38,574 bases of DNA, taken from contig JAQBVG010000012.1 of the NCBI GenBank assembly GCA_027623655.1, positions 1 through 38,574 on the forward strand. The letters are read 5' to 3'. A program made the translations under genes and the position numbers. This document shows, in pieces, positions 4,978-23,883 of this stretch. This DNA is from Chloroflexota bacterium. GTDB taxonomy: Bacteria; Chloroflexota; Dehalococcoidia; Lucifugimonadales; Lucifugimonadaceae. The stretch's first letter is position 1, and every line of letters starts with the position of its first letter. The notes under the pieces were generated by a model. That model did not search any database. It had not been told where the DNA came from and saw only the letters and a program-made list of their open reading frames with translations.

Positions 4978-6096
4978 TTATCCACCCAGACCATGGCGTG
5001 CTTCGCCGTTGTGAGTAACACAGGCTGAGTCGATTACCTCATCCTCAAAATTGAGATTCAGCGTGCCTTCTTTTCGGTCGATAAGCAGGTCGAAAAGTGC
5101 CATCAAGTTCCTTGAATAAAGCTGGCTCGCGTGAAATGGCATAGAACTGGGTACGTTTATCGGACCATTGATCGTTACACCGTTTACGTGGACGACTTCA
5201 CCTGCGACAGTTCCGGCCACGTTCCCGCCGGACTCCGCAGCCAGATCGATCACGACGCTTCCCGGTCGCATCGCTTCAACCATGTCTTCCGTAACCAGAA
5301 GGGGGGCCCTGCGCCCGGGTATTGCGGCGGTGGTGATAACTGCATCAGCCGCGGCGATGTGGCCTTTTAAAAACTCCCGCTGAGCAATCTGCTCGTCCTC
5401 GGTTTGTTCCCGAGCGTATCCGCCCGCACCTTCGGCATCTTTAGCAGCTGGAGGGTGGATGAACTTGGCGCCCAGGCTTTCGACCTGTTCACCGGCTGCA
5501 GCGCGAACGTCGAAGGCCTCTACAACCGCGCCAAGGCGGCGTGCCGTCGCTATGGCCTGGAGGCCTGCAACACCGGCTCCGAGGACGAGAACCTTTGCCG
5601 GAGGAATCGTTCCCGCCGCGGTCATCATCATAGGCAGGTATTTACCGAGACTGTTGGCAGCCAGCAACGCACCTTTGTAGCCGGCGATAGACGCCTGTGA
5701 CGAGAGCACGTCCATCCGCTGAGCGCGGGCAATCCTGGGGACCAACTCCATGGCGAATGCGGTAACTCCGGCAGATGCGAGGGCCGATACACCGTCGGCG
5801 TCGGTACGAGCATTTAGCAGGCCAATCACGACGGTGCCTTTCTTGAGGGCAGCAATTTCGTCGGGTGTCGGAGTCTGGACATGAACGAATACTTCGACTG
5901 ATCCGGCGACGGTTCCTTCCGGTGCGATCGTCGCGCCTGCCAGGGCATAAGCGGAGTCAGTGAACCCTGCGGCCACACCGGCATTTTCCTGGATGACGAT
6001 TTCGTGACCGGCTTTGACCAGTCGTTCGACTGTTTCGGGTACCAGTGCTACTCGCCGCTCGTTGGGATTTGACTCCCTGGGGGCCCCGATCTTCAT
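4978..6096 (-). CDS. pntAA: NAD(P) transhydrogenase subunit alpha, NAD-binding part (alpha-1)
   Basis: A 372-residue soluble subunit with domain I of transhydrogenase, related to alanine dehydrogenase. It begins M-K-I-G-A-P-R-E-S, the usual family start, and carries R-R-V-A-L-V-P, the NAD loop V-L-G-A-G-V-A-G near residue 170, R-A-A-A-G-E-Q-V-E-S and the G-R-R-A-P-L-L-V segment. It lacks the membrane helices, which are coded by pntAB. I prefer ATG 6096 over the in-frame ATG at 6108, because GGAG lies six bases before 6096 (formed by the codons right after the upstream ATG) and the family start fits. It is the first gene of the pnt operon; the 265-base region upstream is shared with the divergent gene at 6362 and should hold both promoters. 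Confidence 0.95.
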   Translation of the reverse strand: MKIGAPRESNPNERRVALVPETVERLVKAGHEIVIQENAGVAAGFTDSAYALAGATIAPEGTVAGSVEVFVHVQTPTPDEIAALKKGTVVIGLLNARTDADGVSALASAGVTAFAMELVPRIARAQRMDVLSSQASIAGYKGALLAANSLGKYLPMMMTAAGTIPPAKVLVLGAGVAGLQAIATARRLGAVVEAFDVRAAAGEQVESLGAKFIHPPAAKDAEGAGGYAREQTEDEQIAQREFLKGHIAAADAVITTAAIPGRRAPLLVTEDMVEAMRPGSVVIDLAAESGGNVAGTVAGEVVHVNGVTINGPINVPSSMPFHASQLYSRNLMALFDLLIDRKEGTLNLNFEDEVIDSACVTHNGEARHGLGG

Positions 6097-6256
6097 CCAC
6101 TGCTCCATTGAAATACAAATTGTTCGCTCAAGCCACGGTTGGCGACAACCTTTGAATGATATCCCCGGTCTTGCCGATGGGGCGTGAAATTATGATGATT
6201 TCTCTGGCTAACGGTTTACGAAGGCCGGTCTTCGGCTGTACTTTGTCCCGGTCTAA

Positions 6257-6769: not shown

Positions 6770-6799
6770 ATGAACCCACGCAAGCACGATTCGTATTGA
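6770..6799 (+). CDS. possible nine-codon leader peptide
   Basis: An ATG at 6770 starts a nine-codon frame (M-N-P-R-K-H-D-S-Y) that ends in TGA at 6797-6799. GGTGAG at 6758-6763, a match to the canonical Shine-Dalgarno tail, stands six bases before it. The TGA overlaps the TTG start of the dehydratase gene (TTGA), whereas that TTG has no ribosome site of its own. Translation of this peptide could therefore deliver ribosomes to the dehydratase start. It has not been compared with related genomes. Confidence 0.4.
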   Translation: MNPRKHDSY

Positions 6800-7956
6800 A
6801 GATCAAGGAAATAACCGCGTTCCCCATCAGAATCTCCCGGGAAGAGGATTCAGAGGGGGGAGACCGTCCGGCCGTTATCGACTTCGGCGATTACTTTGTC
6901 GATCAATCCGCGTTCACATCGATCTACTCGAAGCACCATGAAACTACCGTCATTAAAATTGAGACAGACACAGGAATAGTCGGGTGGGGGGAGGCGCAGT
7001 CTCCTGTTTCACCGAAGACGACCCGGACAATAGTCGACGACCTGGTGCGGCCGCTGATCCTGGGTCGTGACCCGTTCGACATCGAGGCGATCTGGACACG
7101 AAATTACGGTGCGATGAGAGAGCGTGGACATCCGACGGGGTTCTACATTGACGCCATCGGTGGCACGGATATCGCACTCTGGGACATCGTTGGCAAGGCA
7201 ACGGGTAAGCCGGTTCACAAGCTCGCCGGTGGACGCTACCGCGACAGGGTCAAACTCTACGCCGGGATGGGCGGCACCGACCCGCAAAAAGTGGCCGATT
7301 CGGCCGAAGAACACGTCGGTTATGGCTACCGGGCCCTGAAACTGCACTTGCTGCTGGACGCGACCGGCGTGGCTGAGATCGCTCGCGCTGTGCGCCAGCG
7401 AGTGGGACCCGACATCATGCTGATGTGTGACGTGCACATGCGCCAGTCGGTTACAAGTGCGATCAAGCTGGGTCGCGAGTTGGAAAAGCTTGACTTCACA
7501 TGGCTTGAGTCGCCGCTTGTCCCCGAGGACGTACCGGGTGCATCCAGGCTGGCCGACGCCCTCGATATGGCAGTCGCGATCGGCGAGTGGAGCCGAACAC
7601 GCTACGAGATGCGGGAAGCCTTCGAACGCCGTGCGTACGACATCGTTATGCACGACATCGCACGTACCGGAATCACTGAGGGTCACCGCATAGGAACGAT
7701 CGCCGACACCAATAACATTCCTGTCGCCCCACACGTCGGTGGCGGCGGTATTCTGTCGGTTGCTGCAACGGTCGAGTACTCGGCGTCCTGTTCCAATTTC
7801 ATGATCATGGAGCACAGCCACCATGCGAACGAGATCAAGAACGCAATCACAGCCGAGAACTACGGACCGAGGAATGGTTATTTCGAGGTTTCCGATAGAC
7901 CGGGTCTGGGGATCGAGATCGATCAATCGCTGGTCGAAAGCTTTGTAGTCGCCTAG
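6796..7956 (+). CDS. enolase-superfamily acid-sugar dehydratase (mandelate racemase group)
   Basis: A 386-residue TIM-barrel enzyme of the mandelate racemase/muconate lactonizing family. The N-terminal capping domain (1-125) is followed by I-A-L-W-D-I-V-G-K and the barrel. Metal ligands and acid/base residues are visible: K182-x-H184, D212 in D-V-H (H214), E238 in L-E-S-P, E264 in I-G-E, and H313 in A-P-H-V-G-G-G. The D-x-H arrangement with a late His resembles galactonate and related aldonate dehydratases, which make 2-keto-3-deoxy sugar acids by removing water through an enediolate. The exact substrate is not fixed. The start is TTG 6796, which overlaps the stop of a putative leader peptide. 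The kinase gene follows after 17 bases, so the two form a sugar-acid operon. Confidence 0.9.
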   Translation: MKIKEITAFPIRISREEDSEGGDRPAVIDFGDYFVDQSAFTSIYSKHHETTVIKIETDTGIVGWGEAQSPVSPKTTRTIVDDLVRPLILGRDPFDIEAIWTRNYGAMRERGHPTGFYIDAIGGTDIALWDIVGKATGKPVHKLAGGRYRDRVKLYAGMGGTDPQKVADSAEEHVGYGYRALKLHLLLDATGVAEIARAVRQRVGPDIMLMCDVHMRQSVTSAIKLGRELEKLDFTWLESPLVPEDVPGASRLADALDMAVAIGEWSRTRYEMREAFERRAYDIVMHDIARTGITEGHRIGTIADTNNIPVAPHVGGGGILSVAATVEYSASCSNFMIMEHSHHANEIKNAITAENYGPRNGYFEVSDRPGLGIEIDQSLVESFVVA

Positions 7957-7973
7957 TCGATTTGGATGTCGAC

Positions 7974-9458
7974 GTGACCAAATACGAATCTCCGTTTGTT
8001 CTGGCGGTCGATATCGGCAGTTCGTCTGTGAAGGCCGGGTTGTTCGATGCCCGTGCCAGAAGCGTGTCGGGAGTCGAGGTGTCGGTCCCACACAGCCAGA
8101 CCGTTGCCTCCGATGGCACGTCCGAAGAGGACGCAGATCAGATCAGGTACGCTGTCGAGCAGGCGATTGACCGGGTGCTTGAAAAAGCCGGTGATCTCGG
8201 AGCAGAGATTTCCGGAGTTGGATTCGATTGCATGGCCAGCACGGTACTCGGTGTGGACGTCGAAGGCGGTCCTGTTACCCCTGTTTACACCTATGCCGAC
8301 ACCAGATCGGCTCCTGATGTCGAGCAACTGAGAAAAGAACTCAACGTCCCGGTCGTGTACGACAGGACCGGGGTTATGCAGCACACGTCATACGTCCCCG
8401 GTCGAATCAGGTGGTTGCGGCGGACTCAGCCGCACGTCGCGGCGAGAGTTGTCAAGTACGTCGATCTTTCGACTTACATTTACTCGGTGTGGTTCGGCAG
8501 GCAAGACGTCAGAGCCAGTTACTGCGTGTCTTCGTGGAGTGGCCTGTTGAACCGCCGGGAACTGTCGTGGGACACCGGCCTTCTGGGAAGACTCGGTATC
8601 GATGAATCGAACCTTCCAGAACTTTCGGCATGGACCGAACCGGAACGGGGGTTGATCCGGGAATATAGCGAGCGCTGGTCGGCCCTTCGGAATCTGCCGT
8701 TTTTCCTTTCGGTCGGGGATGGCGCCGCAGTCAACGTTGGCAGTGGGAGTGTCGATCAGTCGAGAGTAGCCCTTACGGTGGGGACCACCGGGGCGATGCG
8801 AATCTTGAGCAAGGGGCCAGCACCGGATGTGCCGAACGGTCTCTGGGCGTATCGGCTCGGTAAAGACCGGACTCTCCTGGGCGGCTCGTTTTCAGAGGGC
8901 GGGAACATCGTTCAGTGGGCTTTGAACAATCTGAGGTTACCCCGCATCGAAGAGTTCAACGAGGCCCTCGATAAGATGCAACCTGCCCGGCACGGGATCA
9001 CGGTACTACCGTTCATCGCGGGTGAGCGGGCGACGGGGTGGTCGACGAATGCCACCGGTATGTTCGATGGAATCAGGGTGTCGACAACACCGATTGAAAT
9101 TCTCCAGGCGATGCTCGAATCAGTTGCCTACCGATTCGCGCTGGTCGCCGATCTGTTGCTACCGGGCATCAAGTCCGGGTATCAGGTGATCGCGAGTGGA
9201 GGAGCTATACAGAATTTGCCCTGGTGGCTTCAGACAATGTCCGACGTGCTGGGCGTCTCTGTGGGTGTTTCAGCCGAGAAACAGGACACGAGTCGCGGGA
9301 CCGCAATTCTCGCTTTATACGCCCTTGGTATCTGGGACGAACTCGACAAGTACCCTGCTCGAATCGCGAAGACGTATGAACCGAACCAGGCGAATTCGGA
9401 CGTTTACGCCGCCGCCAGGGACCGTCAATCCAGGTTGTACAAGCAACTGCTAGGTTAA
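7974..9458 (+). CDS. FGGY-family carbohydrate kinase, gluconokinase-like
   Basis: A two-domain sugar kinase of about 494 residues. The first phosphate loop D-I-G-S-S-S-V-K is at residues 13-20, the catalytic aspartate lies in S-V-G-D-G-A-A-V-N-V-G, the second phosphate motif is L-T-V-G-T-T-G-A, and A-S-G-G-A-I-Q-N forms the adenosine site. The segment L-P-F-I-A-G-E-R-A-T-G-W is typical of FGGY gluconokinases and their near relatives. Likely reaction: ATP plus gluconate (or a related aldonate) to the 6-phosphate, which is the substrate of the gnd product coded just downstream on the other strand. GTG 7974 is preferred; an in-frame TTG at 7962 is the alternative. Xylulokinase or another polyol kinase cannot be excluded. 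Confidence 0.85.
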   Translation: MTKYESPFVLAVDIGSSSVKAGLFDARARSVSGVEVSVPHSQTVASDGTSEEDADQIRYAVEQAIDRVLEKAGDLGAEISGVGFDCMASTVLGVDVEGGPVTPVYTYADTRSAPDVEQLRKELNVPVVYDRTGVMQHTSYVPGRIRWLRRTQPHVAARVVKYVDLSTYIYSVWFGRQDVRASYCVSSWSGLLNRRELSWDTGLLGRLGIDESNLPELSAWTEPERGLIREYSERWSALRNLPFFLSVGDGAAVNVGSGSVDQSRVALTVGTTGAMRILSKGPAPDVPNGLWAYRLGKDRTLLGGSFSEGGNIVQWALNNLRLPRIEEFNEALDKMQPARHGITVLPFIAGERATGWSTNATGMFDGIRVSTTPIEILQAMLESVAYRFALVADLLLPGIKSGYQVIASGGAIQNLPWWLQTMSDVLGVSVGVSAEKQDTSRGTAILALYALGIWDELDKYPARIAKTYEPNQANSDVYAAARDRQSRLYKQLLG

Positions 9459-9461
9459 GGC

Positions 9462-9704
9462 CTACTCTGCCGTTCGACCGGGCTCTTCTGAGTGTCTTTC
9501 GACCCTTTCTGTGATTATGGATCGCATAAGCGTGCGAACGTCCTCGATCAACCGAATTGGCGGCGCCTGGTCTTCGTGGACCGATTCAGCTCTGTCGACC
9601 CATTCCCAGAGATCCTCCAGGGCCTCGCGCAGTTCCCGCGCAGTCATCATCTGGGGTTCTGCATCCCAGTAATCTGGCGGTGCTGGAAACTTCGCGTTAG
9701 TCAT
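9462..9704 (-). CDS. small acidic hypothetical protein
   Basis: An 80-residue protein with no recognised domain, rich in Glu, Arg and Ala and probably mostly helical (E-L-R-E-A-L-E-D-L-W-E-W-V-D-R near the middle). There is no signal peptide or membrane segment. It is placed 90 bases after gnd on the same strand and could be the last gene of the pentose-phosphate operon. It ends tail to tail with the kinase gene (four bases apart). ATG 9704 is preferred over the adjacent GTG 9707. The composition resembles a real soluble protein, but the gene is short. Confidence 0.5.
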   Translation of the reverse strand: MTNAKFPAPPDYWDAEPQMMTARELREALEDLWEWVDRAESVHEDQAPPIRLIEDVRTLMRSIITERVERHSEEPGRTAE

Positions 9705-9793
9705 CACTGAACTCTATTCGGAAGGGCTGCCTGTTTTGAGTCTCATCGGCTTCGAATGGAGACTGATTGTCAGTTCTGGCAGCGGTCGAAATT

Positions 9794-10705
9794 CTACTCG
9801 CCAGCCTTTTTGACTGCATGTCCACCGAAGCCGCGGCGCATTGCCGCGAGCATTTTCCCGCCGAACGGATCGGTCTGCCTTGACCGGAACCTCATCTGAA
9901 GCGCGGCGGTGATGACAGGTATGGGGACCGCCAGCTCGACTGAAGCGTCAACAGTCCATCGCCCCTCGCCGGAGTCGTCGACGTAGGAGCTCAGAGAATC
10001 AAGATTCGGTTCGCGCTCCAACTCGTCTGCAGCGAGGTCGAGCAGCCATGATCGAATTACACTACCCCGTCGCCAATTCTCGGCGATTGCACCCAGATCG
10101 AGATTGAAATCTTCTTTGGCTGCGAGCAGTTCGAAGCCCTCGGCAAATGCCTGCATCATTCCGTATTCGATCCCGTTGTGGATCATCTTGACGTAGTGAC
10201 CCGATCCACTCGGACCAACGTAAAGGTTGCCGTCAGAGTCGGGCGGAGCGAGCGTCCGGAAGATCGGCCTGTTGCGCTCGTATGCTTCTCGACTACCGCC
10301 AATGGTCAGGCAGTATCCGTTGGCAAGTCCCCACACACCCCCGCTTGTGCCTGAATCAAGAAAATCGATACCGCTGACGGCAGCGTGGTCGGCCCTGCGT
10401 TGCGATTCCTTGTAGTTCGAATTTCCTCCGTCGATCAGCGTATCGCCCGGCTCGAGCAGAGCCACAAGATCGTTCACGGTCTGCTCGGTGATGTCGCCCG
10501 CGGGCACCATTACCCACACCGTCCTCGGGGCATCTAACTGAGCCACGAGTCTCTCGAGTGAATTAGCCGAAGTCGCACCTTTTTCTGCAAGTGAAGCGAC
10601 CGCGGTCGAGTTTGGATCGTAGGCAACGACATTGTGACCGTCCAAGAGCAACCGCTCAGCCATATTGCCGCCCATCCGGCCCAGGCCGACCATTCCGAGA
10701 ATCAT
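9794..10705 (-). CDS. gnd: 6-phosphogluconate dehydrogenase, decarboxylating, short type
   Basis: About 303 residues, the size of the short NAD-type 6-phosphogluconate dehydrogenases (the classical NADP type is about 470). It converts 6-phosphogluconate to ribulose 5-phosphate and CO2. The protein begins M-I-L-G-M-V-G-L-G-R-M-G-G, the dinucleotide loop; then D-G-G-N-S-N, the substrate signature G-T-S-G-G-V-W-G, and the catalytic lysine in G-H-Y-V-K-M-I-H-N-G-I-E. ATG 10705 is chosen because of this family start and GGGGAG eight bases upstream; the in-frame ATG at 10753 would add 16 unlike residues. It is coded in an operon with rpiB, tal and pgi, which use its product, and lies opposite a gluconokinase-like gene that would make its substrate. 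Confidence 0.95.
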   Translation of the reverse strand: MILGMVGLGRMGGNMAERLLLDGHNVVAYDPNSTAVASLAEKGATSANSLERLVAQLDAPRTVWVMVPAGDITEQTVNDLVALLEPGDTLIDGGNSNYKESQRRADHAAVSGIDFLDSGTSGGVWGLANGYCLTIGGSREAYERNRPIFRTLAPPDSDGNLYVGPSGSGHYVKMIHNGIEYGMMQAFAEGFELLAAKEDFNLDLGAIAENWRRGSVIRSWLLDLAADELEREPNLDSLSSYVDDSGEGRWTVDASVELAVPIPVITAALQMRFRSRQTDPFGGKMLAAMRRGFGGHAVKKAGE

Positions 10706-10749
10706 TTGGGTGCTCCCCCCCTGCCATTCGACCGGGACGCCACCCCGGA

Positions 10750-11493
10750 TCACGCTTGTTCGACTGAATCAATTCTGCGAGAAACAGTTTCGTTGAGTTT
10801 AGCTGGATCGTGGACGATCCACTGCTCGTCCATCCATGAAGTTGACTCGATAGCAGGGCGAGAGAATGCTGTGCTCACGCAAATCCATGCAGCACCGGCG
10901 GCCGAAGCGGCCTGGATCCCGATGGGGGAATCCTCGATGATAATTACTTCGCCAGGTTCAACGCCCAGCCGATCCATTATGTAGAGATAGATCTCGGGGT
11001 CGGGCTTTGGATTTGTTACAGCATCCCGACCGACCACACCGTCCAACAACACTCTGAGACCGATGGCGTCGAGCACTCTTTTCGCTTCATCGGTGAACGA
11101 CGAAGTTGCGACGGCGACAATCCGCCCTATCGACTTTTGTTCACGCAAAAGACTGGCGCTGTGCCAGTAGACGTTCGCTCGAAGATTTTCGGGTGTGCCA
11201 TTGCTCCCGCGATACTCATCCATTCTTTGCTGGTGCAGGTTTACCCACGGTTCACCATGGAGAGGCTCGAGCGCGCTGGTGAGGTCGAACTCTTCAATCA
11301 TCTGGCGGCACACCATTTCATCTGTTGAACCGACGATTCGTTCGTAAAGTTCGACGGCGCGATGATCCGGTGAATTGGCTCCGGTCAGCGAACCCACTAC
11401 AGTGGCGTAACTCTGTGCCTTGAGTTGCTCGGTCTCAACGAGAGTCCCGTCGAGATCGAATATGAACGCACGAATCCGAGAGGTGGCCGCCAT
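10750..11493 (-). CDS. HAD-superfamily hydrolase (beta-phosphoglucomutase-like)
   Basis: A 247-residue HAD phosphatase or mutase of subfamily IA with an alpha-helical cap. Motif I F-D-L-D-G-T is at residues 12-17, motif II is V-A-T-S-S, motif III lysine is in N-P-K-P-D-P-E-I-Y, and motif IV reads I-I-E-D-S-P-I-G-I-Q-A-A, a form common in beta-phosphoglucomutases and sugar-phosphate phosphatases. It probably dephosphorylates or isomerises a sugar phosphate of the neighbouring pathway. ATG 11493 is preferred because the family start follows directly; the ATG at 11541 would overlap the DUF2090 gene by 35 bases. It lies 13 bases after that gene and 44 before gnd. Confidence 0.88.
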   Translation of the reverse strand: MAATSRIRAFIFDLDGTLVETEQLKAQSYATVVGSLTGANSPDHRAVELYERIVGSTDEMVCRQMIEEFDLTSALEPLHGEPWVNLHQQRMDEYRGSNGTPENLRANVYWHSASLLREQKSIGRIVAVATSSFTDEAKRVLDAIGLRVLLDGVVGRDAVTNPKPDPEIYLYIMDRLGVEPGEVIIIEDSPIGIQAASAAGAAWICVSTAFSRPAIESTSWMDEQWIVHDPAKLNETVSRRIDSVEQA

Positions 11494-11506
11494 TCTTTTG
11501 CCGCGG

Positions 11507-12412
11507 CTAGTAGACCTTTGAGGTAGATCGAGATTTTTCAAATATCTCGTCTACGTCGTTCAGGTGAGACGCTATGGCATTGATCGCTTCGCCGCGGTCG
11601 ATCAGTCCTTCGCTGAACTGAACCAACTGGCGGAAGTAGGCCCCGGGGCCGATCAGTACACCATCTATGCCCGGAGTGTGTGCCGCAACCCTGACGACAT
11701 GCTTTTCGGTTTCAGGGGGAGCAGACCCAACCTGTCCGGCCGCCAGATCTACCGACGCAGCAAGAAGGACCTTTGTGTTTGCACGATCGTCGAGACGAGC
11801 CTGAGCAGCGAACGTCGCTGTGTACGTATCGTCGGCTCCCGGCTCAAATGCCCAGATCGAAGGCTCGACCCCGACATCCTGCAACTGCTGAATGGCCATC
11901 AGTAGCATTACCGACTTTGCTTCCGCCACGCTACCGTACATTTCTATCTGGGCTGACGTGGGAACCGCGTCGAGTTGGATAAGTAAGGGCATCGATTCGT
12001 CACGCGCCCTGTCAGAAACGATTTTCAGGCGACCTAGCAGCTCGCTGAGGACTTCCTTCGGGCTATCCGGGTCGAGAGCGATCTGGATGCCTGTGTAGTC
12101 GACATTCAGTTTGCCGAGTGTGTGGGCACCGCTGCCCGGGGACGACACCGAGATCATCGACATTGCTCTTGCCCTGAGTAACACCGATTCACCCAGATCG
12201 CTGTCAGCCCAGACGCCCACGCTTGATTTCGCAAGCCCGTTTTCGATCGCGGTCATCACACCTTCGAAAACAATGCGCTTCAGGTCAGCAGCAGCTTCAC
12301 GGTCGGCCGCAGAAGGCTCGCCCTCAGCTTTGAGTATTTCGGCGCACAGATCCACGCGATCGTCGAGAGTGACGATGAAGAAAGGATTTAGTTCGGTACT
12401 TGAGCCTGTCAA
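11507..12412 (-). CDS. DUF2090 / IolC C-terminal-domain-like aldolase-fold protein
   Basis: A 301-residue protein that I recognise by pattern as the DUF2090 domain, found at the C-terminus of some IolC (5-keto-2-deoxygluconokinase) proteins and thought to be an aldolase-type TIM barrel. Matching segments are L-K-R-I-V-F-E-G-V (44-52), a P-L-L-I-Q-L strand near 142-147, Q-L-Q-D-V-G-V-E-P-S-I-W (176-187) and D-G-V-L-I-G-P-G-A-Y-F (250-260), the last like the family's G-F-A-V-G-R-T segment but with the Arg missing. Here it stands alone, without the kinase domain. It is the fourth gene of the rpiB-tal-pgi operon, 27 bases after pgi. The start is TTG with GGAGAG upstream. A sugar-phosphate aldolase role, perhaps in place of a class II aldolase, is inference. 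Confidence 0.7.
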   Translation of the reverse strand: MTGSSTELNPFFIVTLDDRVDLCAEILKAEGEPSAADREAAADLKRIVFEGVMTAIENGLAKSSVGVWADSDLGESVLLRARAMSMISVSSPGSGAHTLGKLNVDYTGIQIALDPDSPKEVLSELLGRLKIVSDRARDESMPLLIQLDAVPTSAQIEMYGSVAEAKSVMLLMAIQQLQDVGVEPSIWAFEPGADDTYTATFAAQARLDDRANTKVLLAASVDLAAGQVGSAPPETEKHVVRVAAHTPGIDGVLIGPGAYFRQLVQFSEGLIDRGEAINAIASHLNDVDEIFEKSRSTSKVY

Positions 12413-12439
12413 AATATGCTCTCCGAGGTGAGTCCTGGT

Positions 12440-14074
12440 TTAGCCGAATACAAGATTACGGGCGTGCTCGAGTTCTTCGATGAGACGGTTTCCCAGCGCA
12501 ATGGGCTGAACATTCTGACCTTGTTCCGCCATCACTGTAAAGTCTCCTCCGGCCTGTGCCACGGTCAGTTGCCCAAATGAGTAGTTTGCGCCCGGCACAG
12601 GCAGATCATCATATTTCCCTGATACGAAGCCCAGCACGACTGCGTTCTTTGGGCCCCCTTTGTAAAGTTGCCCGATCGAGTGTAGATAACGCGGTCCATA
12701 ACCGAACGTCGTGGCAACACCGGTCGCGTCGGTTATTGCCAACCGGAGTGCAGAAAACTCGGCGGTCAACGGCGGCGATTCCGGCAGGAACGCGATAAGC
12801 GCGACATAAGCGGGCGGTGAGACGCCAGCGAGCGATTTTAGAGCGTCGACCAATGGGCCAACTTCCAGCTCCTGGTTGATATCAGTTAGCAGTTGGCGAG
12901 CCTTGATTTTTGCGGCTTCAACGTCCGGTTGATCGAACGGATAAATGCCCATGAGCGAAGAGGCAACCGCGGTCGCGAACTCCCACCTGAAGAATTCGCC
13001 TGCGATTCGATATTTGTTCTCTGCAGGAACCTCGATGATCAACAAAGGATGGCCCGCCGCCACGAGTCCGCTCGACAGCGCACGAACGGAAGACGCATCG
13101 TCACCGGAATCGATCAGAACGAACTGACGATCGTTTCCGTATTTTTCGGCAGGGGATAGTTTTTCACCCGTGACCGGAATCAGCCCCTTGCCGTTTTTTC
13201 CAGTCGATTCGGCGAGTAGCTGCTCGACCCACATTCCAAACGCTGCGAGACCGGGCGACGTGAGGAGGGTCACCTTGTCGCGACCCGTCTGTGCGTTCGC
13301 CGCCAGAAACCCACCGAGTTGCAGGCCGGGATTCGAGGTGGTGTCGGCCCGGCACAGTTGGGCCATACGCACTGCTTCGTCGGCGAATGCCTGCAGATTC
13401 AGACCGGCCACCGCGGCGGGCATCATGCCGAATGCACTCAGGCCAGAAAATCGACCACCGACATCTTCAGGAGTGGCGACCCATGTTCCGAACTCGCCAG
13501 CCCTTGCTCTTTCAGATAGCGGAGTCCCGGAATCCGTGAGTGCGACGAAATTCCTGCGTCCACCCCTGGCGTTTGATTGATCAGCCAGTCTTGATCGGAA
13601 ATGCGACTCCAATGTGAGCGGCTCGACGGTGGTGCCGGACTTACTGGAGACGAAAAACAGTGTCCTGGAAAGATCAAGCGAATTTGTGAGACTGGTCACG
13701 GTGCTCGGGTTGACGGTGTCCAGGGCGTGAAGTCGCAATCTGGGTGCTGGGTCCTGGGACTGGCGATTCACGTCAGATCGGAATATTTCGCCCAGTGTCA
13801 GCGGGGTCAAGCTACTCCCACCCATACCGAGCACTACAGCATCCGTGAATCCGTCACCCACCAGCGTGCCTGCGAGGCCTGAAAACTGCTCGGCTAAATC
13901 GGGCAGCCGGGCCGGCAAGTCCAGCCAGCCCAGTGTGAGCTCCGGTGGGTCCCCACCCGGTGAGGGTTCGGGCCAGAGAGTGGGATCCCGGCGCCACAAC
14001 CTGGTAGCAAAGGATTCTGCAACGAGGTGATCAAGCACCTTTTCGACTGGTTGGTGACCTGGGAGAGCAGTCAA
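12440..14074 (-). CDS. pgi: glucose-6-phosphate isomerase
   Basis: A 544-residue phosphoglucose isomerase that interconverts glucose 6-phosphate and fructose 6-phosphate. It has V-L-G-M-G-G-S-S-L (81-89), the phosphate-binding S-S-K-S-G-T-T (143-149), a G-G-R-F-S-G-L-S segment, E-N-K-Y-R-I-A-G-E-F with the acidic catalytic region, and the family signature G-P-R-Y-L-H-S-I-G-Q-L-Y-K-G-G-P about 75 residues before the end. The sequence style is that of the isomerase half of bifunctional transaldolase/isomerase proteins; here the transaldolase is a separate gene 30 bases upstream, as if the fusion were split or not yet formed. The start is TTG 14074 with AGGGGAAG eight bases before it. Confidence 0.95.
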   Translation of the reverse strand: MTALPGHQPVEKVLDHLVAESFATRLWRRDPTLWPEPSPGGDPPELTLGWLDLPARLPDLAEQFSGLAGTLVGDGFTDAVVLGMGGSSLTPLTLGEIFRSDVNRQSQDPAPRLRLHALDTVNPSTVTSLTNSLDLSRTLFFVSSKSGTTVEPLTLESHFRSRLADQSNARGGRRNFVALTDSGTPLSERARAGEFGTWVATPEDVGGRFSGLSAFGMMPAAVAGLNLQAFADEAVRMAQLCRADTTSNPGLQLGGFLAANAQTGRDKVTLLTSPGLAAFGMWVEQLLAESTGKNGKGLIPVTGEKLSPAEKYGNDRQFVLIDSGDDASSVRALSSGLVAAGHPLLIIEVPAENKYRIAGEFFRWEFATAVASSLMGIYPFDQPDVEAAKIKARQLLTDINQELEVGPLVDALKSLAGVSPPAYVALIAFLPESPPLTAEFSALRLAITDATGVATTFGYGPRYLHSIGQLYKGGPKNAVVLGFVSGKYDDLPVPGANYSFGQLTVAQAGGDFTVMAEQGQNVQPIALGNRLIEELEHARNLVFG

Positions 14075-14104
14075 TTCGCTATCTTCCCCTGACCCTGGCG
14101 TGAG

Positions 14105-15208
14105 CTAAACCGTCAGGGCCTTCAACTTCTGGTCGATTCGACCTAACAACGATGCGTAAGAGTCGGCGAAGGCTTTCACTCCGGCTGTCAGCAGGTCGTC
14201 CGTTATGGCGCTCAGTGAAACACCGGCTTCAGACAGTGCGTTCAGTTGCGAACGTGCCTGGTCCAGACCCCTGGTCAACTCGACGCCGGGTTTTCCGTGA
14301 TCTAGCAGTGCCTTCATCGTCGCTTCGGGAACGGTGTTGACCGTATCGGGACCCATTAAACCATCGATGTACAGAGTATCGGGGTAGTTGGGGTTTTTTA
14401 CACCGGTCGATGCCCAGAGTGGCCTCTGAACTTGCGCACCGGTGGTGTGTAGCGGGAAGAACGAGCCGCCACCGCCCAGCTTGCGATCAAACATTTCACC
14501 GAACTCGGCATACGCTGCCTTTGCATTGGCGATTCCGATTTTTCCACGCAGGTCGTGCCCTTCAGGCAGTGCATTGTCTACTGATGTGTCGACCCGGCTT
14601 ACGAAGAACGATGCGACCGATGCGACGGAACCCGTGTTGCCGCGACCCGACTTAGCGTATGCGCTCAATCCTTCGATATAGGCGTTGGCCGCGGCGCGGT
14701 ACGCATCGATGGCGAACAACAGTGTCACGTTGACGTTGATGCCCTCCGAAATCAAAGCCTTGATTGCAGGGAGGCCAGCTGCTGTTCCCGGAACCTTGAT
14801 CATCACGTTTGGGCGATCAATTGCGTCCCACAGGCGATGGGCTTCGTTCACTGTGCCATCGGTGTCGTCGGCAAGGGTTGGCGATACCTCGATGCTCACG
14901 AAACCGTCTCGTCGTCCCGCCCCGTCATAGACGGGGCGGAGGACATCGGCTGCATCCCGGATGTCGTCGACAGCCAATCGTTCGAAGATGGACTGTGGAT
15001 CAGCTCCGCCTTCTGCGTACTCGAGGATCGACTCGTCGTAGATGTCGCTGTCGGCGATGGCCTTATCGAAAATCGATGGATTCGATGTGACACCGGTAAC
15101 CCCGAGGTCTACGAATTCCTGTAGTCCGCCCGATCGCAACATGTCTCGACTTATCGAATCGAGCCAAATCGACTGCCCGTTTTTCAGTGCTTTCTGGATG
15201 TTGTTCAT
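14105..15208 (-). CDS. tal: transaldolase
   Basis: A 367-residue transaldolase, which moves a dihydroxyacetone unit between sedoheptulose 7-phosphate and glyceraldehyde 3-phosphate. The N-terminus has W-L-D-S-I-S-R-D and the signature G-V-T-S-N-P-S-I-F (39-47); the Schiff-base lysine is K138 in V-M-I-K-V-P-G-T; N-V-N-V-T-L-L-F follows. The size and sequence are those of the mycobacterial/cyanobacterial type that is often fused to or next to pgi. It stands between rpiB (131 bases upstream) and pgi (30 bases downstream) in the pentose-phosphate operon. No strong ribosome site is seen before the ATG. Confidence 0.96.
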   Translation of the reverse strand: MNNIQKALKNGQSIWLDSISRDMLRSGGLQEFVDLGVTGVTSNPSIFDKAIADSDIYDESILEYAEGGADPQSIFERLAVDDIRDAADVLRPVYDGAGRRDGFVSIEVSPTLADDTDGTVNEAHRLWDAIDRPNVMIKVPGTAAGLPAIKALISEGINVNVTLLFAIDAYRAAANAYIEGLSAYAKSGRGNTGSVASVASFFVSRVDTSVDNALPEGHDLRGKIGIANAKAAYAEFGEMFDRKLGGGGSFFPLHTTGAQVQRPLWASTGVKNPNYPDTLYIDGLMGPDTVNTVPEATMKALLDHGKPGVELTRGLDQARSQLNALSEAGVSLSAITDDLLTAGVKAFADSYASLLGRIDQKLKALTV

Positions 15209-15339
15209 ATCAGTTGTCCCAGGGTTGGCCTTTCAGTTCAACAACCACGCCGCCATGTACAGGCAATTTTCAGCGAACCAGCATGCTGTTCAGGAGTCGC
15301 TTCCTCCAGGGAAGCGAACAACAGGACTGAGTGATTCCA

Positions 15340-15801
15340 CTAATTGCTGCCGATTTGCTCTCTCTCGATTCTGGCGACTTTGTCCAATCGTCGCTGGAAT
15401 CTCGGGTGTGATTCAAGGGTGGCACCTACAAAAGCTTTTACGAGGTCTTCCGCCAGGGCAACGCCGACGACCCGTGCTCCCATGCACAGGACATTCATGT
15501 CGTCATGACGGACTCCCTGAGCAGCAGAATACGTGTCGTGACACAGCCCCGCCCTCACTCCGGGATACTTGTTTGCAGCGATACACGCACCCACTCCACT
15601 GCCACACAGGATGATCCCTCGATCGACTTCGCCAGCCTGGACTGCCGCCGCGACCGGTGCTGCAAAGTCCGGAAAATCATCCTCACCGTCGAACTCGAAA
15701 GCGCCTTTGTCCACGACTTCGTGGCCAAGATTCGTGAGCAATTTCGCCATTTCACTTTTCAGATCAAAACCGCCGTGATCCGCGCCGATAGCAAGTCTCA
15801 T
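15340..15801 (-). CDS. rpiB: ribose-5-phosphate isomerase B
   Basis: A 153-residue RpiB/LacAB-type sugar-phosphate isomerase that converts ribulose 5-phosphate to ribose 5-phosphate. It has the family start M-R-L-A-I-G-A-D-H-G-G, the active-site C66 in L-C-G-S-G-V-G, A-N-K-Y-P-G-V-R-A and the C-H-D-T segment (87-90), followed by H-D-D-M-N-V-L. GGGAAG stands six bases before the ATG. It is the first gene of the operon that ends with gnd, whose product it uses. The 111 bases before it, toward the SMP-30 gene, would carry a promoter if the lactonase gene is a separate unit; both point the same way, so a longer transcript is possible. Confidence 0.95.
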   Translation of the reverse strand: MRLAIGADHGGFDLKSEMAKLLTNLGHEVVDKGAFEFDGEDDFPDFAAPVAAAVQAGEVDRGIILCGSGVGACIAANKYPGVRAGLCHDTYSAAQGVRHDDMNVLCMGARVVGVALAEDLVKAFVGATLESHPRFQRRLDKVARIEREQIGSN

Positions 15802-15912
15802 ATAAAGCTTCCCATTGAACAGTTACCGAAGTTCGATGCAATCTATTCTCGGCGCGATCCTCGTTCATTGCCAGCCAAGCAGGTGGATATTGGGTGGGCC
15901 CTCGATAGACGG

Positions 15913-16872
15913 CTACCAGTAACGATGTGATCCTGCGACCTTTACCCTCACCGAATAGAGTGACGTATCGCCACAAATGTAGATGCGCTGGCCGTCTCTG
16001 TCCCCAAAAACGAGATTGGCAGTTGCCTGCTCGGGAATAAGGATTTTGCCGATTAAATCGCCAGCCGGGGTGTAACATTGGACGCCGTCCCTGGCGCTGG
16101 TCCAGATATTTCCCCGCTCATCGACCCTTAAGCCGTCCGCCATGCCGGGTTTCACCTTCGCGAATAGTCGTCGATTCGACAGAGTCTTGCGATCGCTGTT
16201 CACATCGAACACCGTGATGCTCTGGGGCTTACCGGTATTCGCAAGGTAAAACAGTTTTTCATCAGGCGAGAATGCAAGTCCGTTCGGTCGATCACCAATA
16301 CTGTCAACGATCGAGATATCTCCCGATTCAGGGTCAAGCCTGTATGTGTAATTACCCTCGAGTTCTGAACTCCGTTGATTCCCTTCACGATCGGACAGAA
16401 TTCCGTACGGTGGATCTGTGAACCAGATCGTCCCATCGGATTTCACCACGAGATCATTCGGTGAATTGAGGCGTTTACCCTGCCAGTGTTCAACCAGTGA
16501 AACGACCGTGCCATCGGCCCCGGTCCGTGAAATTCGATTTGCTCGGTGCTCGCAAGAAACGAGGCGACCCTGCTGGTCTCGATAATGACCGTTCGTGTTG
16601 TTGCACGGTTCCCTGAAAACTGTGGTTTGCCCTGACCCGGCGGCAAACTTCAGCATTCGATCGTTCGGAATGTCGGACCACAGCACGTAGTCGCCTTCCG
16701 GGAAGTACACCGGACCTTCAGCCCACTCACAGCCCGTATAGTGCTTCTCGATCCGGATGTCCGGATCAATCAGTTCGAGAAACCGGTCGTCAATGACTTC
16801 GACGCCCTCTCTCAACTCCGCGGGAGGGGTTGAGTTCCGGTGGTTTGTAAAGGTTTTTGGTACTGCGATCAT
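15913..16872 (-). CDS. SMP-30/gluconolactonase-family lactonase
   Basis: A 319-residue six-bladed beta-propeller of the SMP-30/gluconolactonase/LRE family, which opens sugar lactones to aldonic acids with a divalent metal. Likely metal ligands are all visible: E52 in A-E-G-P, N139 region in N-S-P-N-D, N197 in R-P-N-G, and D246 or D247 region in A-D-G-L-R-V-D. K-S-D-G-T-I-W-F-T-D-P-P-Y-G is characteristic. No signal peptide is seen, so it acts in the cytoplasm. It lies upstream of and codirectional with rpiB-gnd and downstream of a second SMP-30 gene, so it may supply gluconate to the gluconokinase-Gnd route (inference). Confidence 0.92.
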   Translation of the reverse strand: MIAVPKTFTNHRNSTPPAELREGVEVIDDRFLELIDPDIRIEKHYTGCEWAEGPVYFPEGDYVLWSDIPNDRMLKFAAGSGQTTVFREPCNNTNGHYRDQQGRLVSCEHRANRISRTGADGTVVSLVEHWQGKRLNSPNDLVVKSDGTIWFTDPPYGILSDREGNQRSSELEGNYTYRLDPESGDISIVDSIGDRPNGLAFSPDEKLFYLANTGKPQSITVFDVNSDRKTLSNRRLFAKVKPGMADGLRVDERGNIWTSARDGVQCYTPAGDLIGKILIPEQATANLVFGDRDGQRIYICGDTSLYSVRVKVAGSHRYW

Positions 16873-16923
16873 TTGTAGGATTTTCTGTGGTTAGTCTGTC
16901 GTTGCAACGGGCGGAGATCGGGT

Positions 16924-17850
16924 TCAGACAGGTGGTCGACTGGCGCCGACCGCATTGAGTCTAATACTCCAGATTGAGCTCGTCGCTCCTATAAAAAGCG
17001 TCTGTAGGTCGTTCATTCCGAACGATAGATTGGCAGCGACCTCGGGTGTATGGATTTTGCCGAGCATGTCGCCCGCCGGATTGAACACCTGGACGCCATC
17101 GCCGGCCGCTACCCATATGTTGCCGTCGACGTCCGACCTGAAGCCATCGGGTACGTGCGGTTCAATATCGGCGTAAATTCGTGGATTCGCAAGACGGTCG
17201 CGATCTGCGCCAACGACGTCGAATGCCATCATTCGATGCGGTCTGAATTCCCCATGAGTGCGACCCGTGTCACCCACATACAGGACCGATTCGTCGGCTG
17301 AAAACGCTATGCCGTTTGGCTTGTCAAAATCCTCGTTGACCATTTTGATTTCGAACGAGTTGGGATCAACCCGATACACCCGATTGCGGCCCTGTTCCGG
17401 TTTGTCACCGTGCCCCAGTTCCGGGTGCAGAAATCCGTAATCGGGATCAGTGAACCAGATTGAGCCGTCTGATTTCACTGTTACGTCGTTGGGCGACGTC
17501 AGTCTGCCACCCTCAAACGAATCGGCGACCGTGGTCATACTGCCATCGTGCTCCTGCCGCACTACCGTACGTTCCCTGGTGAGGCACGACAGCACACGCC
17601 CTTCGCGATCGACGGTGTTGCCGTTGGCGCAACCTGACGGCCGACGAAAAACTCCAAAACCGCTTCGTTCGCTCCAACTGACGATTCGATTGTTAGGGAT
17701 GTCGCTAACGATCACTTCGCTACGGTTCGGCACCCAACAGACGCCTTCCGCAAACGCAAGACCGTCAGCGACAAGTTCCAGCCGGGGTGATGGACCCAGG
17801 ATGCGCTGGAATTCGGCGTCGAATATTTCGTAGCGATCAGACCCTGCCAT
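16924..17850 (-). CDS. SMP-30/gluconolactonase-family lactonase (second copy)
   Basis: A 308-residue beta-propeller paralogue of the next gene. It has A-E-G-V near residue 35, the S-P-N-D-V segment at 119-123, K-S-D-G-S-I-W-F-T-D-P-D-Y-G, K-P-N-G-I-A-F-S at 177-184 and P-D-G-F-R-S-D at 234-240, which match the metal ligands of the family. The open frame reaches to 18306, but the part above 17850 runs antisense to the ceramidase-like gene and is unlike the family. ATG 17850, with AAGGGG ten bases upstream, gives the proper start. The divergent gene begins at 18014, so the 163 bases between should hold two promoters. Substrate is unknown; a different sugar lactone from that of the first copy is likely, because the two are well diverged. 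Confidence 0.9.
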   Translation of the reverse strand: MAGSDRYEIFDAEFQRILGPSPRLELVADGLAFAEGVCWVPNRSEVIVSDIPNNRIVSWSERSGFGVFRRPSGCANGNTVDREGRVLSCLTRERTVVRQEHDGSMTTVADSFEGGRLTSPNDVTVKSDGSIWFTDPDYGFLHPELGHGDKPEQGRNRVYRVDPNSFEIKMVNEDFDKPNGIAFSADESVLYVGDTGRTHGEFRPHRMMAFDVVGADRDRLANPRIYADIEPHVPDGFRSDVDGNIWVAAGDGVQVFNPAGDMLGKIHTPEVAANLSFGMNDLQTLFIGATSSIWSIRLNAVGASRPPV

Positions 17851-18013
17851 GTTGAAGAAACCCCTTGAAATTGCCTCGTTACTGTGGAGACCCACTGAGC
17901 AAGAAGTGAGGTGGAGCGTACCACCCAACCGTGAAACTCGCACTCGGACGACGTGGGCGAAGCGGTAATATCGAAGCCGTTCACTGCGGCCCTTGCACAC
18001 AACAGGATTGCGA

Positions 18014-19084
18014 ATGGTTCTAGAAATGGCTGGCAAGACCGATCCTGGTCTATTTATGGCCGGCGCCGGGCGTGCTGTAATTACGCCTCCTGTCGGATTT
18101 ACTATCGACGGACCGGAATTCGGTGCACGCGAATCGATGGGCGTGCTGGACGACCTGCTGGCAAGAGTGGTTGTTCTCGAATCGAAGGGTGTTCGGACTG
18201 TTCTAGTAAGCCTTGATGTGTGGGGGCTTTCCACCGGGTTGGCTGAGGCGATCAAACGTGCCGCCGGAACCTCGGCCGGAGTCGAGAACGATTCAGTCTG
18301 GCTCACGGTTACCGGAAATGGAACCGCCCCGCCGTTGTGGCGAGACGATTCACAGTATGCAAACTACCGTGCGTTTCTACCCGAGCAGATCGCAGGTGCC
18401 ACGGCTGTCGCTGCACGATCGCTCGAACCGGCGTCGATGGGCTCGACCGCAACGCTTCTGCCCGATGTCTCGACGTTCTCAGATGGACCGGGTCGGCCAG
18501 GGAATGCCGCACTGTTTGTGCTGGCGATTAACGGGGCGGACGGTCATGGGATCGCCCGACTGGTCAACTTTGCGTGCCCCGGAACAATCACCGGTCCGGG
18601 GACGATGTGGACGGCCGACTACCCCGGTTATGCCGCATGGGCCCTCGAACAGAATGGTGGCGGGATTTCGCTTTTTTCGCAGGCCCCCTCTCACGACATT
18701 CGGCCGTATGACTGGTGGGACGGCAACGAAAATCCCTCACATGCGGGCCGGACGCCCCAGGATGTACATGCGCTGGGGCTTTTACTGGCAACACAGGCAG
18801 CTAATGGTGCCGCTGAATCCATACAGCGTCGGAACGTTGAGATTGAATCACGGTCAGACGCTGTAGCCGGTCTACAGGTGATGCGAATTGGCGACGCATA
18901 TTTCGTTTCTACCGACAAGCCGCAACCGAACAAGTTCGCTCGTAGAATCCGACGGGGACTCCCGCACTCGAAGACATTTGTGTCGGCTAATCTATCGGGC
19001 GGAATGTTTGATGCCCGGGCGACCTTCGACGCGAGGGCGGTAAAACGTGGATCGGCAATACTTTCCGAATTTGGAGCAACGTAG
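18014..19084 (+). CDS. neutral ceramidase-like protein without the zinc histidines
   Basis: About 356 residues that follow the N-terminal domain of neutral/alkaline non-lysosomal ceramidases as found in many bacteria: M-A-G-A-G-R-A-V-I-T-P-P-V-G (15-28), R-V-V-V-L-E-S, V-L-V-S-L-D-V-W-G and N-F-A-C. In active family members the segments T-H-T-H-S-G-P and F-A-C-H-P carry zinc-binding histidines. Here they read T-G-N-G-T-A-P (100-106) and F-A-C-P-G (186-190), so both metal motifs are gone. There is no signal peptide. ATG 18014 is chosen because CAGGA stands six bases before it; a TTG at 17993 would lengthen it. The protein is likely not a ceramidase; a binding or altered catalytic role is possible. 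Confidence 0.72.
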   Translation: MVLEMAGKTDPGLFMAGAGRAVITPPVGFTIDGPEFGARESMGVLDDLLARVVVLESKGVRTVLVSLDVWGLSTGLAEAIKRAAGTSAGVENDSVWLTVTGNGTAPPLWRDDSQYANYRAFLPEQIAGATAVAARSLEPASMGSTATLLPDVSTFSDGPGRPGNAALFVLAINGADGHGIARLVNFACPGTITGPGTMWTADYPGYAAWALEQNGGGISLFSQAPSHDIRPYDWWDGNENPSHAGRTPQDVHALGLLLATQAANGAAESIQRRNVEIESRSDAVAGLQVMRIGDAYFVSTDKPQPNKFARRIRRGLPHSKTFVSANLSGGMFDARATFDARAVKRGSAILSEFGAT

Positions 19085-23657: not shown

Positions 23658-23701
23658 CTGGCTGGTGCCGAATCCCTTGTAGACCGGAAGAAGGAGGTTT
23701 T

Positions 23702-23722
23702 TTCCTGCGGCATGAGCAGGAA
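23702..23722. promoter_or_regulatory. inverted repeat between divergent dehydratase genes
   Basis: TTCCTGC (23702-23708) and GCAGGAA (23716-23722) form perfect seven-base arms around seven bases, in the 226-base region between the two divergent enolase-superfamily genes. It lies just upstream of the minus-strand start and may be an operator for a shared regulator. A T-run precedes it on the plus strand, so it could not terminate plus-strand transcripts, and on the minus strand only an A-run follows it. Confidence 0.35.
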
Positions 23723-23883
23723 CTAATGACTGAGCGATGGTGCGCCCGGTTGAAATTCGTGTCAACGACGGCAGCGGGCGGAATAGGCGTTGACATCCTG
23801 CCTGCCGGTGTCAAAATTCCTCCCGTCGATCGAACGCGGAGCCGGTTCCGCGACCAGCTATCTGTATCTTACAGTTCAATTCA

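Follow-up and report, generated by a model that had tools for sequence, protein, structure and literature searches.

Organization of the Locus

How does carbon enter a pentose phosphate gene cluster that carries neither a glucose-6-phosphate dehydrogenase gene (zwf) nor a 6-phosphogluconolactonase gene (pgl)? This question is raised by a locus within a 38,574-nt stretch of DNA (the window) from the genus of Candidatus Lucifugimonas marina (SAR202). The initial annotation had described a gluconokinase-like gene that faces gnd, pgi, tal, and rpiB together with two SMP-30 genes, and profile matches confirmed this arrangement as well as the lack of zwf and pgl among the cluster genes. The features of the locus and its neighbourhood are as follows:

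3222–4625, minus strand: neighbouring pntB, NAD(P) transhydrogenase beta subunit
4978–6108, minus strand: neighbouring pntA, NAD(P) transhydrogenase alpha subunit
6796–7956, plus strand: mandelate-racemase-family (enolase-superfamily) sugar-acid dehydratase-like gene, ending 5 bp before the kinase gene
7962–9458, plus strand: FGGY-family kinase, probable D-gluconate kinase by sequence, fold, and context
9794–10753, minus strand: gnd, NAD-type 6-phosphogluconate dehydrogenase (TIGR00872, 389.2 bits; cut-off 297.2)
10750–11541, minus strand: HAD-IA phosphatase, beta-PGM/CbbY-like
11507–12412, minus strand: aldolase-fold (LacD/YihT/DUF2090-like) protein without catalytic lysines
12440–14074, minus strand: pgi, phosphoglucose isomerase (PF00342, 49.3 bits; cut-off 22)
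14105–15208, minus strand: tal, transaldolase (TIGR00876, 329.6 bits; cut-off 233.75)
15340–15801, minus strand: rpiB, ribose-5-phosphate isomerase B (TIGR01120, 140.8 bits; cut-off 138.65)
15913–16872, minus strand: SMP-30 family lactonase 1 (PF08450)
16924–about 17850, minus strand: SMP-30 family lactonase 2 (PF08450)

The kinase gene is thus convergent with a minus-strand run that extends from gnd through the SMP-30 genes. The same gene order is found in the 17 congeneric neighbourhoods that were read, as far as their contigs extend, which argues that the clustering is more than chance. The exceptions are an undetected HAD gene in loci L074 and L075 and an insert of about 2 kb between gnd and the kinase gene in L060 and L063. 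The HAD phosphatase and aldolase-fold genes of the same run, as well as the dehydratase-like gene in front of the kinase gene, had been omitted from the earlier reading. The pgi gene of the window is unfused, yet resembles the pgi half of tal–pgi fusions.

The best PDB matches of SMP-30 lactonase 1 are the chains 3e5z and 3dr2, both annotated as gluconolactonase. By the PF08450 domain and the nearest solved gluconolactonases, both SMP-30 genes encode putative gluconolactonases. The ORF of SMP-30 lactonase 2 extends to 18306, whereby the domain starts inside the ORF and the start codon given above is a deduced one. The dehydratase-like gene matches galactonate dehydratase best among the NCBIfam models (219 bits; cut-off 311) and scores 179 bits against gluconate/galactonate dehydratase (cut-off 750). 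Genes for gluconate synthesis or uptake were not identified, which counts against an entry of carbon at gluconate.

Distribution of zwf and Lactonase Genes in the Genus

The initial annotation had proposed that the cluster oxidises sugars outside the usual zwf entry, a reading that a zwf gene elsewhere in the genome would speak against. Such a gene was found by the genome search: contig C77 of the same genome carries a full-length zwf (TIGR00871, 519 bits; cut-off 400.6). Two further genes of contig C77 recur at the zwf locus of G054, the nearest relative, which makes a binning error or stray contig unlikely; the three other congeneric zwf loci that were read have only zwf in common with C77. 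The bypass therefore does not describe this genome, but it is supported at the level of the clade, since 14 of the 19 genomes of the genus, the closed strain JH1073 included, gave no zwf match. In 13 of these 14, gnd and the kinase gene adjoin. The exception (G042) has a kinase fragment only, which lies at a contig edge. In another genome (G046) gnd is split into two pieces. The window's genome belongs to a zwf-retaining minority of its genus, with zwf located elsewhere, and probably has both entries.

A pgl gene of the SOL type was found neither in this genome nor in 75 of the 76 family genomes. YbhE-type lactonases (PF10282), however, match in 69 of the 76 genomes, which counts against gluconate entry. 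The copy of the window's genome, on contig C180, scores 399.6 bits to PF10282 but lies below both 6-phosphogluconolactonase cut-offs, and it is flanked by enolase-superfamily-like genes.

It might be that the pathway is an ordinary one here, in which zwf feeds 6-phosphogluconate, the lactone is opened by the YbhE-type lactonase or by spontaneous hydrolysis, and the kinase provides a minor route for outside gluconate. The zwf gene on C77, in its shared gene context, and the lactonase on C180 would fit this, and so would the kinase gene, which occurs in all 24 zwf-bearing genomes. The latter finding counts against gluconate entry, and the kinase is therefore not a replacement gained upon zwf loss. 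On the other hand, most congeners lack a zwf match while nearly all of these keep the gnd–kinase pair, and the score and the neighbours of the YbhE-type gene likewise speak against the ordinary pathway. We therefore regard the ordinary pathway as unlikely.

Substrate of the FGGY Kinase and Its Linkage to gnd

The gnd product is strongly assigned by sequence as an NAD-dependent 6-phosphogluconate dehydrogenase (6PGDH). Its best PDB matches are short 6PGDHs, the alignment to solved 6PGDHs is full-length, and all 36 orthologues examined have an Asp at the dinucleotide-binding strand as well as the motifs SGG and K..HN.

For the kinase, a gluconokinase function is favoured, although not proved, by sequence, fold, and a conserved arginine, so that the activity is a predicted one. 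Both FGGY domains score over their cut-offs (Pfam PF00370, 106.7 bits; PF02782, 77.4 bits). The best NCBIfam model is the gluconokinase TIGR01314 (221 bits, below the curated cut-off of 648.55), with 188.6 bits against the xylulokinase TIGR01312. Gluconate kinase 3gbt is the best PDB sequence match (150.9 bits; next 117.7), and the top structural matches are 3ll3 (Z 45.6) and 3gbt (Z 45.3; next 42.1). The entry 3ll3 is the same protein as 3gbt, yet it is titled xylulose kinase, which counts against the gluconokinase reading. The Arg of the motif G(T/S)(T/S)x(A/S)xR is present in 40 of 40 kinase orthologues examined, in 5 of 5 annotated gluconokinases, and in 0 of 8 other FGGY kinases compared. 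A five-position specificity signature, beginning with Met-His, has been described for GntK (PMC3245297). The window kinase does not carry it: at these positions, located by MAFFT alignment to E. coli GlpK, it has A-S-S-D-A versus M-H-M-D-A in two Firmicutes GntKs, an agreement at only 2 of 5 positions. Two annotated Deinococcus gluconokinases have A-S-A-D-A. In the tree, the kinase groups with annotated gluconokinases of Deinococcus and Variovorax (83/100, drawn open), with the Firmicutes GntKs outside. The gluconokinase-like reading of the initial annotation is favoured by the best family, the fold, and the Arg but is weakened by the TIGR01314 cut-off and the missing signature.

The kinase and gnd genes are convergent neighbours in 41 of the 66 genomes that have both (7 of 12 genera). 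Eleven of these linked pairs lie in zwf-bearing genomes and 30 in zwf-less ones; zwf stands between the two genes in 6 of the 41 genomes, and in genus g8 it does so in 6 of 7 genomes. In genera g7, g11, and g12, the kinase gene is codirectional with pentose phosphate genes in one run (6 of 6 neighbourhoods read), which in five of the six also includes both SMP-30 genes. Genus g10 has the linked pair in just 2 of 9 genomes, and the kinases there show only 34% identity.

Alternatively, the kinase and the dehydratase-like gene product could share a different substrate, either a ketose or a sugar acid other than gluconate, whereby the adjacency of gnd would be incidental. This would agree with the lacking Firmicutes signature, with the three loci read in genus g2, which all retain the dehydratase–kinase pair with gnd far off, and with the nearest annotated kinases, those of Deinococcus, whose genes share sugar-acid operons with mannonate and galactonate dehydratase genes. 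However, in three g10 loci read it is the dehydratase partner that is not adjacent to the kinase gene, and the frequent gnd neighbourhood, or else the pentose phosphate run of g7, g11, and g12, as well as the invariant gluconokinase-type Arg speak for gluconate. A different substrate thus seems quite improbable to us.

Absence of zwf Across the Family

Within the family, 52 of the 76 genomes gave no zwf match. Forty-two of the 44 genomes with gnd and without zwf contain the kinase gene, whereas gnd occurs without either zwf or the kinase gene in G008, a single-contig genome, and in G030. An unrelated glucose-6-phosphate dehydrogenase, for example an F420-dependent one, might feed gnd in the zwf-less lineages, and G008 encodes a protein that scores 188 bits to the F420-dependent family. 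Since none of the 76 genomes reached the curated cut-off of 420 bits, the F420-dependent enzyme was rejected as a hidden zwf; there was also no match at E ≤ 1e-20 within the window's genus. Overall, a dehydrogenase of this kind is very improbable.

That zwf is merely missing from incomplete bins is hardly credible: most genomes are fragmented and several zwf-less ones are less than 80% complete, but zwf is also absent from 12 of the 26 high-quality genomes (at least 90% complete, at most 5% contaminated), two of them single-contig, including JH1073, for which this explanation is refuted unless zwf has diverged beyond recognition by the family model, and in 30 zwf-less genomes gnd and the kinase gene are contiguous at the very position where g8 carries zwf. 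No zwf remnant above chance was detected in the gnd–kinase gap of 15 gap-spanning congeneric loci, nor in that of the window, where relaxed hits had E values from 0.98 up.

Transketolase and the Aldolase-Fold Protein

The initial annotation had also suggested a return to hexose phosphate through transaldolase and Pgi. The tal and pgi genes are present, but the return is doubtful because, unexpectedly, the search of the 19 genus members yielded no full-length transketolase. The same holds for the 26 genomes examined from the Ca. Lucifugimonas genus and genera g5 and g6 together. The genome G044 encodes a transketolase-like protein of 783 aa, for which aceE is the best family, below cut-off.

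The protein encoded at 11507–12412 was modelled with AlphaFold2 (pLDDT 87.3; VIA Z 23.3 to 8tnf). It has its fold in common with the DUF2090/LacD/YihT class I aldolases (Z about 21–23). The lysine at the WK.E position is presumably the Schiff-base former. The other lysine and a Glu are named in PMC9007349. Homologues from Polaromonas and Deinococcus as well as IolC homologues keep both lysines, whereas both positions are substituted in 33 of 33 SAR202 homologues (A/V/S/I and A/G/D/E/C, respectively). These retain the Asp of DHR (33/33), the Arg (29/33), and the Glu (29/33), for which the window copy has Gln. Due to the loss of both lysine positions, aldolase activity is thought to be unlikely. 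A role as a simple replacement of transketolase or epimerase was rejected as well, since rpe matched in 70 of the 76 genomes and the gene also occurs in transketolase-bearing genera.

Proposed Model

Overall, we think it rather probable that the locus represents an entry of gluconate into the pentose phosphate pathway that is old in the SAR202 family. The SMP-30 lactonases would open a sugar lactone to the aldonate, and the FGGY kinase, judged by sequence, fold, and context, would convert D-gluconate to 6-phosphogluconate. Gnd, a strong sequence assignment, would oxidise and decarboxylate the latter with NAD to ribulose 5-phosphate, from which RpiB, together with an Rpe encoded elsewhere, could form ribose and xylulose 5-phosphates. 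The nearby PntAB transhydrogenase may turn NADH into NADPH. The dehydratase-like gene product might divert the same acid into the non-phosphorylative oxidation of sugars and sugar acids proposed for cultured SAR202 (Lim et al., 2023; PMC10444878). Such an entry could have made zwf dispensable and so have led to its loss in many lineages.

For the Ca. Lucifugimonas genus, g5, and g6, we tentatively raise a further possibility. Here the pathway may have been re-rooted on gluconate, with zwf mostly lost and without full-length transketolase, and could run one way, turning scavenged sugar lactone into pentose phosphate and NADH via gluconokinase, Gnd, and RpiB/Rpe, while the operon would retain the lysine-less former aldolase for a new function, perhaps a regulatory or isomerising one.

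Should gluconate be the entry, the NADPH and nucleotide supply of a widespread ocean lineage would rest on scavenged or self-made sugar acids and not on glucose 6-phosphate. As the zwf-less strain JH1073 is in culture, this can be tested directly.

Comparison With Known Systems

Passages of two surveys (PMC5864207, PMC11994032) call the SAR202 pentose phosphate pathway present or complete, which contrasts with the mostly absent zwf in the family and the absent full-length transketolase in the genus. A literature search on SAR202 and phosphoketolase returned no papers, and nothing on SAR202 was among the listed matches for a zwf bypass. In the main text of PMC10444878, the terms zwf, pentose phosphate, and transketolase do not occur, and gluconate appears only in a reference title.

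The canonical zwf–pgl–gnd pathway has gnd, rpiB, tal, pgi, and rpe in common with SAR202. It differs in that 52 of 76 genomes of the SAR202 family gave no zwf match and 75 of 76 no SOL-type pgl, and entry at gluconate is proposed instead. A closer parallel is the gntK–gnd record of Latilactobacillus, where an FGGY gntK lies beside a short gnd (about 299 aa), as in the SAR202 locus. The Latilactobacillus genes form a two-gene cassette by an RpiR-type regulator, whereas in SAR202 the pair is joined by lactonase genes, tal, pgi, and rpiB, and much of the clade has lost zwf. With the route of Lim et al. (2023), the locus has lactone and sugar-acid substrates and enolase-superfamily dehydratases in common, but the branch encoded here is a phosphorylating one.

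A convergent kinase and pentose phosphate cluster

Between positions 7962 and 17850, a plus-strand FGGY kinase gene is convergent with eight closely spaced genes on the minus strand: two of the SMP-30 family, rpiB, tal, pgi, one encoding an aldolase-fold protein, one encoding a HAD phosphatase, and gnd (6-phosphogluconate dehydrogenase). Positions of the genes discussed individually in the following are:

7962-9458, plus strand: FGGY kinase
10750-11541, minus strand: HAD phosphatase, adjoining gnd
11507-12412, minus strand: aldolase-fold protein
17993-19084: 363-aa protein adjoining the locus
22503-23765 and 23884-25119: two further enolase-superfamily genes

The observation of this cluster in the initial annotation is sound, and zwf (glucose-6-phosphate dehydrogenase) and pgl (6-phosphogluconolactonase) are absent from it; the kinase, gnd, pgi, tal, rpiB, and both SMP-30 genes had been recognized, but the aldolase-fold and HAD genes had been missed. 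A mandelate-racemase-family gene ends 5 bp ahead of the kinase start, and pntA and pntB flank this gene pair on the far side. Among NCBIfam models, the mandelate-racemase-family gene matches galactonate dehydratase best (219 bits, below the cut-off of 311), and it scores 179 bits against the gluconate/galactonate dehydratase model (cut-off 750). The HAD phosphatase has CbbY/beta-PGM-like PDB matches and may serve in the repair of a misfired sugar phosphate; a HAD gene likewise adjoins an NAD-type gnd on Polaromonas plasmid pPNAP02. The 363-aa protein is conserved across the genus, and Pfam and NCBIfam searches gave no match for it at E<=0.001. The two additional enolase-superfamily genes agree with reports that this family is greatly expanded in cultured SAR202.

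The kinase as a predicted gluconokinase

The best solved sequence relative of the kinase is the Lactobacillus acidophilus gluconate kinase 3gbt (150.9 bits), followed by a glycerol kinase (117.7 bits). A structural search with the predicted model (pLDDT 91.3) yielded 3ll3 (Z 45.6) and 3gbt (Z 45.3) as top matches, with the next at Z 42.1. Both entries represent the same protein; the 3ll3 record is titled xylulose kinase, and a study of the FGGY family places both under gluconokinase (PMC3245297). Among 901 matching records of a plasmid collection, the best three are annotated as gluconokinase and the fourth as glycerol kinase. A 29-sequence tree places the SAR202 kinases with annotated gluconokinases of Deinococcus and Variovorax (83/100, drawn open), separate from E. 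coli XylB, GlpK, AraB, LyxK, RhaB, and FucK, whereby two Firmicutes GntKs also fall outside the SAR202 group. The arginine of the motif G(T/S)(T/S)x(A/S)xR, which would bind the carboxylate, is present in all 40 SAR202 orthologues examined and in 5/5 annotated gluconokinases, but in none of eight other FGGY kinases. Against a gluconokinase count the missed TIGR01314 cut-off (221 vs 648.55 bits) and the Firmicutes GntK signature published in PMC3245297, of which only two of five positions match.

Gnd scores above the cut-off of the NAD-dependent 6PGDH model and aligns over its full length with solved 6PGDHs. The second dinucleotide-binding strand ends in an Asp, a residue that favours NAD at this position; this Asp and the K..HN motif occur in 36 of 36 orthologues examined. 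The nearby PntAB would provide NADPH.

zwf and pgl in the genome and across the family

The assembly (2.77 Mb in 216 contigs, 91.1% complete, 1.56% contaminated) carries zwf on contig C77 (PF02781, 1.1e-105; TIGR00871, 519 bits, cut-off 400.6), so that the proposal of a module without glucose-6-phosphate dehydrogenase is refuted for this genome. Since C77 measures only 6,721 bp, its membership in the genome was examined. Two further C77 genes have counterparts near zwf of the nearest relative, G054 (58% and 79% identity), and the three other congeneric zwf loci read share zwf alone with C77. In a tree, the zwf groups with four others of the genus (100/99), separate from those of genera g8 and g2. 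Grouping and shared genes together fit vertical descent. A SOL-type 6-phosphogluconolactonase (PF01182) was not found in the genome, but contig C180 encodes a YbhE-type lactonase (PF10282, 399.6 bits). It misses the cut-offs of two 6-phosphogluconolactonase models (208 and 178.6 bits against 500 and 370), and its neighbours resemble, by eye, enolase-superfamily genes.

Across the 76 family genomes, zwf is present in 24 (5/19 in the genus of the window) and SOL-type pgl in one. Among the 26 high-quality genomes (>=90% complete, <=5% contaminated), zwf was not found in 12, two of them single-contig. Of 68 genomes with gnd (E<=1e-80), 44 are without zwf, and 42 of these have the kinase (E<=1e-40); no match at this threshold was obtained in G008 and G030. 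The single-contig G008 (genus g3, 2.75 Mb) has gnd without zwf or kinase, and encodes a 188-bit F420-dependent G6PDH-like protein. All 24 genomes with zwf also have the kinase, which therefore did not originate as a zwf replacement; rather, once the kinase is there, zwf seems dispensable. The literal claim fails for this genome; the larger idea, gluconate as an entry with dispensable zwf, has good support for a large part of the clade (zwf not found in 52/76 genomes), provided that the predicted kinase is indeed a gluconokinase.

In 41 of the 66 genomes that have both genes, gnd and the kinase converge as neighbours no more than about 2.3 kb apart (g1, 18; g4, 8; g8, 6; g5, 4; g6, 2; g10, 2; g9, 1), and 30 of these 41 have no zwf. 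In six g8 genomes zwf is placed between the two; no zwf remnant above chance was found in the gnd-kinase gap of the window or of the 15 loci from its genus that span this gap. About 2 kb with open frames is inserted there in two genus members, G049 (L063:12284-14402) and G044 (L060:12092-14360). The kinase lies beside gnd in no genome of g2, g7, g11, and g12. The six g7, g11, and g12 neighbourhoods read place it in one codirectional run with rpiB and other pentose phosphate genes, including two SMP-30 genes in five. The dehydratase-like partner is retained beside the kinase in 3/3 g2 loci read (76-77% identical to that of the window) and was not kept in three g10 loci. Two SMP-30 genes lie upstream of rpiB in all 17 congeneric neighbourhoods read.

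Transketolase and the proposed return to hexose phosphate

Unexpectedly, searches for full-length transketolase (PF00456, best E<=1e-60) found none in the genus of the window (19 genomes), g5 (4), or g6 (3); the enzyme is present in 38 of the 50 remaining family genomes, and inside this same cluster in 10 of 40 loci compared (g2, g3, g7, g9, g11, g12). Six genus members, including the genome of the window, have matches to the N-terminal half (E 1e-24 to 1e-38), which in this genome (L178:4594-6224) and in JH1073 are two-subunit genes adjoining a HpcH/GarL-type aldolase gene. For the remaining 13 genus members, the best match falls within open frames of 857-898 aa, a size that would fit PDH E1. 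Transaldolase, pgi, and rpiB are retained in the loci read, and rpe in most genomes. With no transketolase, the suggested return path via transaldolase and Pgi would be missing its usual partner, a gap that a phosphoketolase could fill.

Two SAR202 surveys describe the pentose phosphate pathway as complete or present (PMC5864207, PMC11994032). Lim et al. 2023 (PMC10444878) report that cultured SAR202 can grow on fucose and rhamnose as well as on the lactones and acids of these sugars; its main text does not mention zwf, pentose phosphate, or transketolase, and gluconate occurs in one reference title only.

A lysine-less aldolase-fold protein

With the aldolase-fold protein as query, this locus was also recovered from Candidatus Lucifugimonas marina JH1073, whose genome is closed (CP046147.1; SAR202 cluster, Dehalococcoidia, Chloroflexota in the NCBI taxonomy). 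The protein is a weak relative of DUF2090 (24.3 bits, cut-off 27), which 28 of 33 homologues match at E<=0.01. A published proposal makes DUF2090 an aldolase that uses Lys and Glu in catalysis (PMC9007349). The model (pLDDT 87.3) matches sulfohexulose-phosphate, tagatose-bisphosphate, and YihT aldolases (Z about 21-23). However, the lysine position of WK.E/YKVE is A, V, S, or I in all 33 SAR202 homologues, and the second lysine is likewise gone in all 33. This protein, devoid of the catalytic lysines, is conserved in the pentose phosphate operon. In contrast, both lysines are retained in IolC and in the Polaromonas and Deinococcus homologues, and the first in YihT. The neighbours of the Deinococcus homologue include none of such pathway genes. 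On pPNAP02, the lysine-bearing homologue is clustered with phosphoketolase, transketolase, HAD, and NAD-type gnd genes, and the tie of the aldolase-fold protein to the pentose phosphate pathway therefore extends beyond SAR202.
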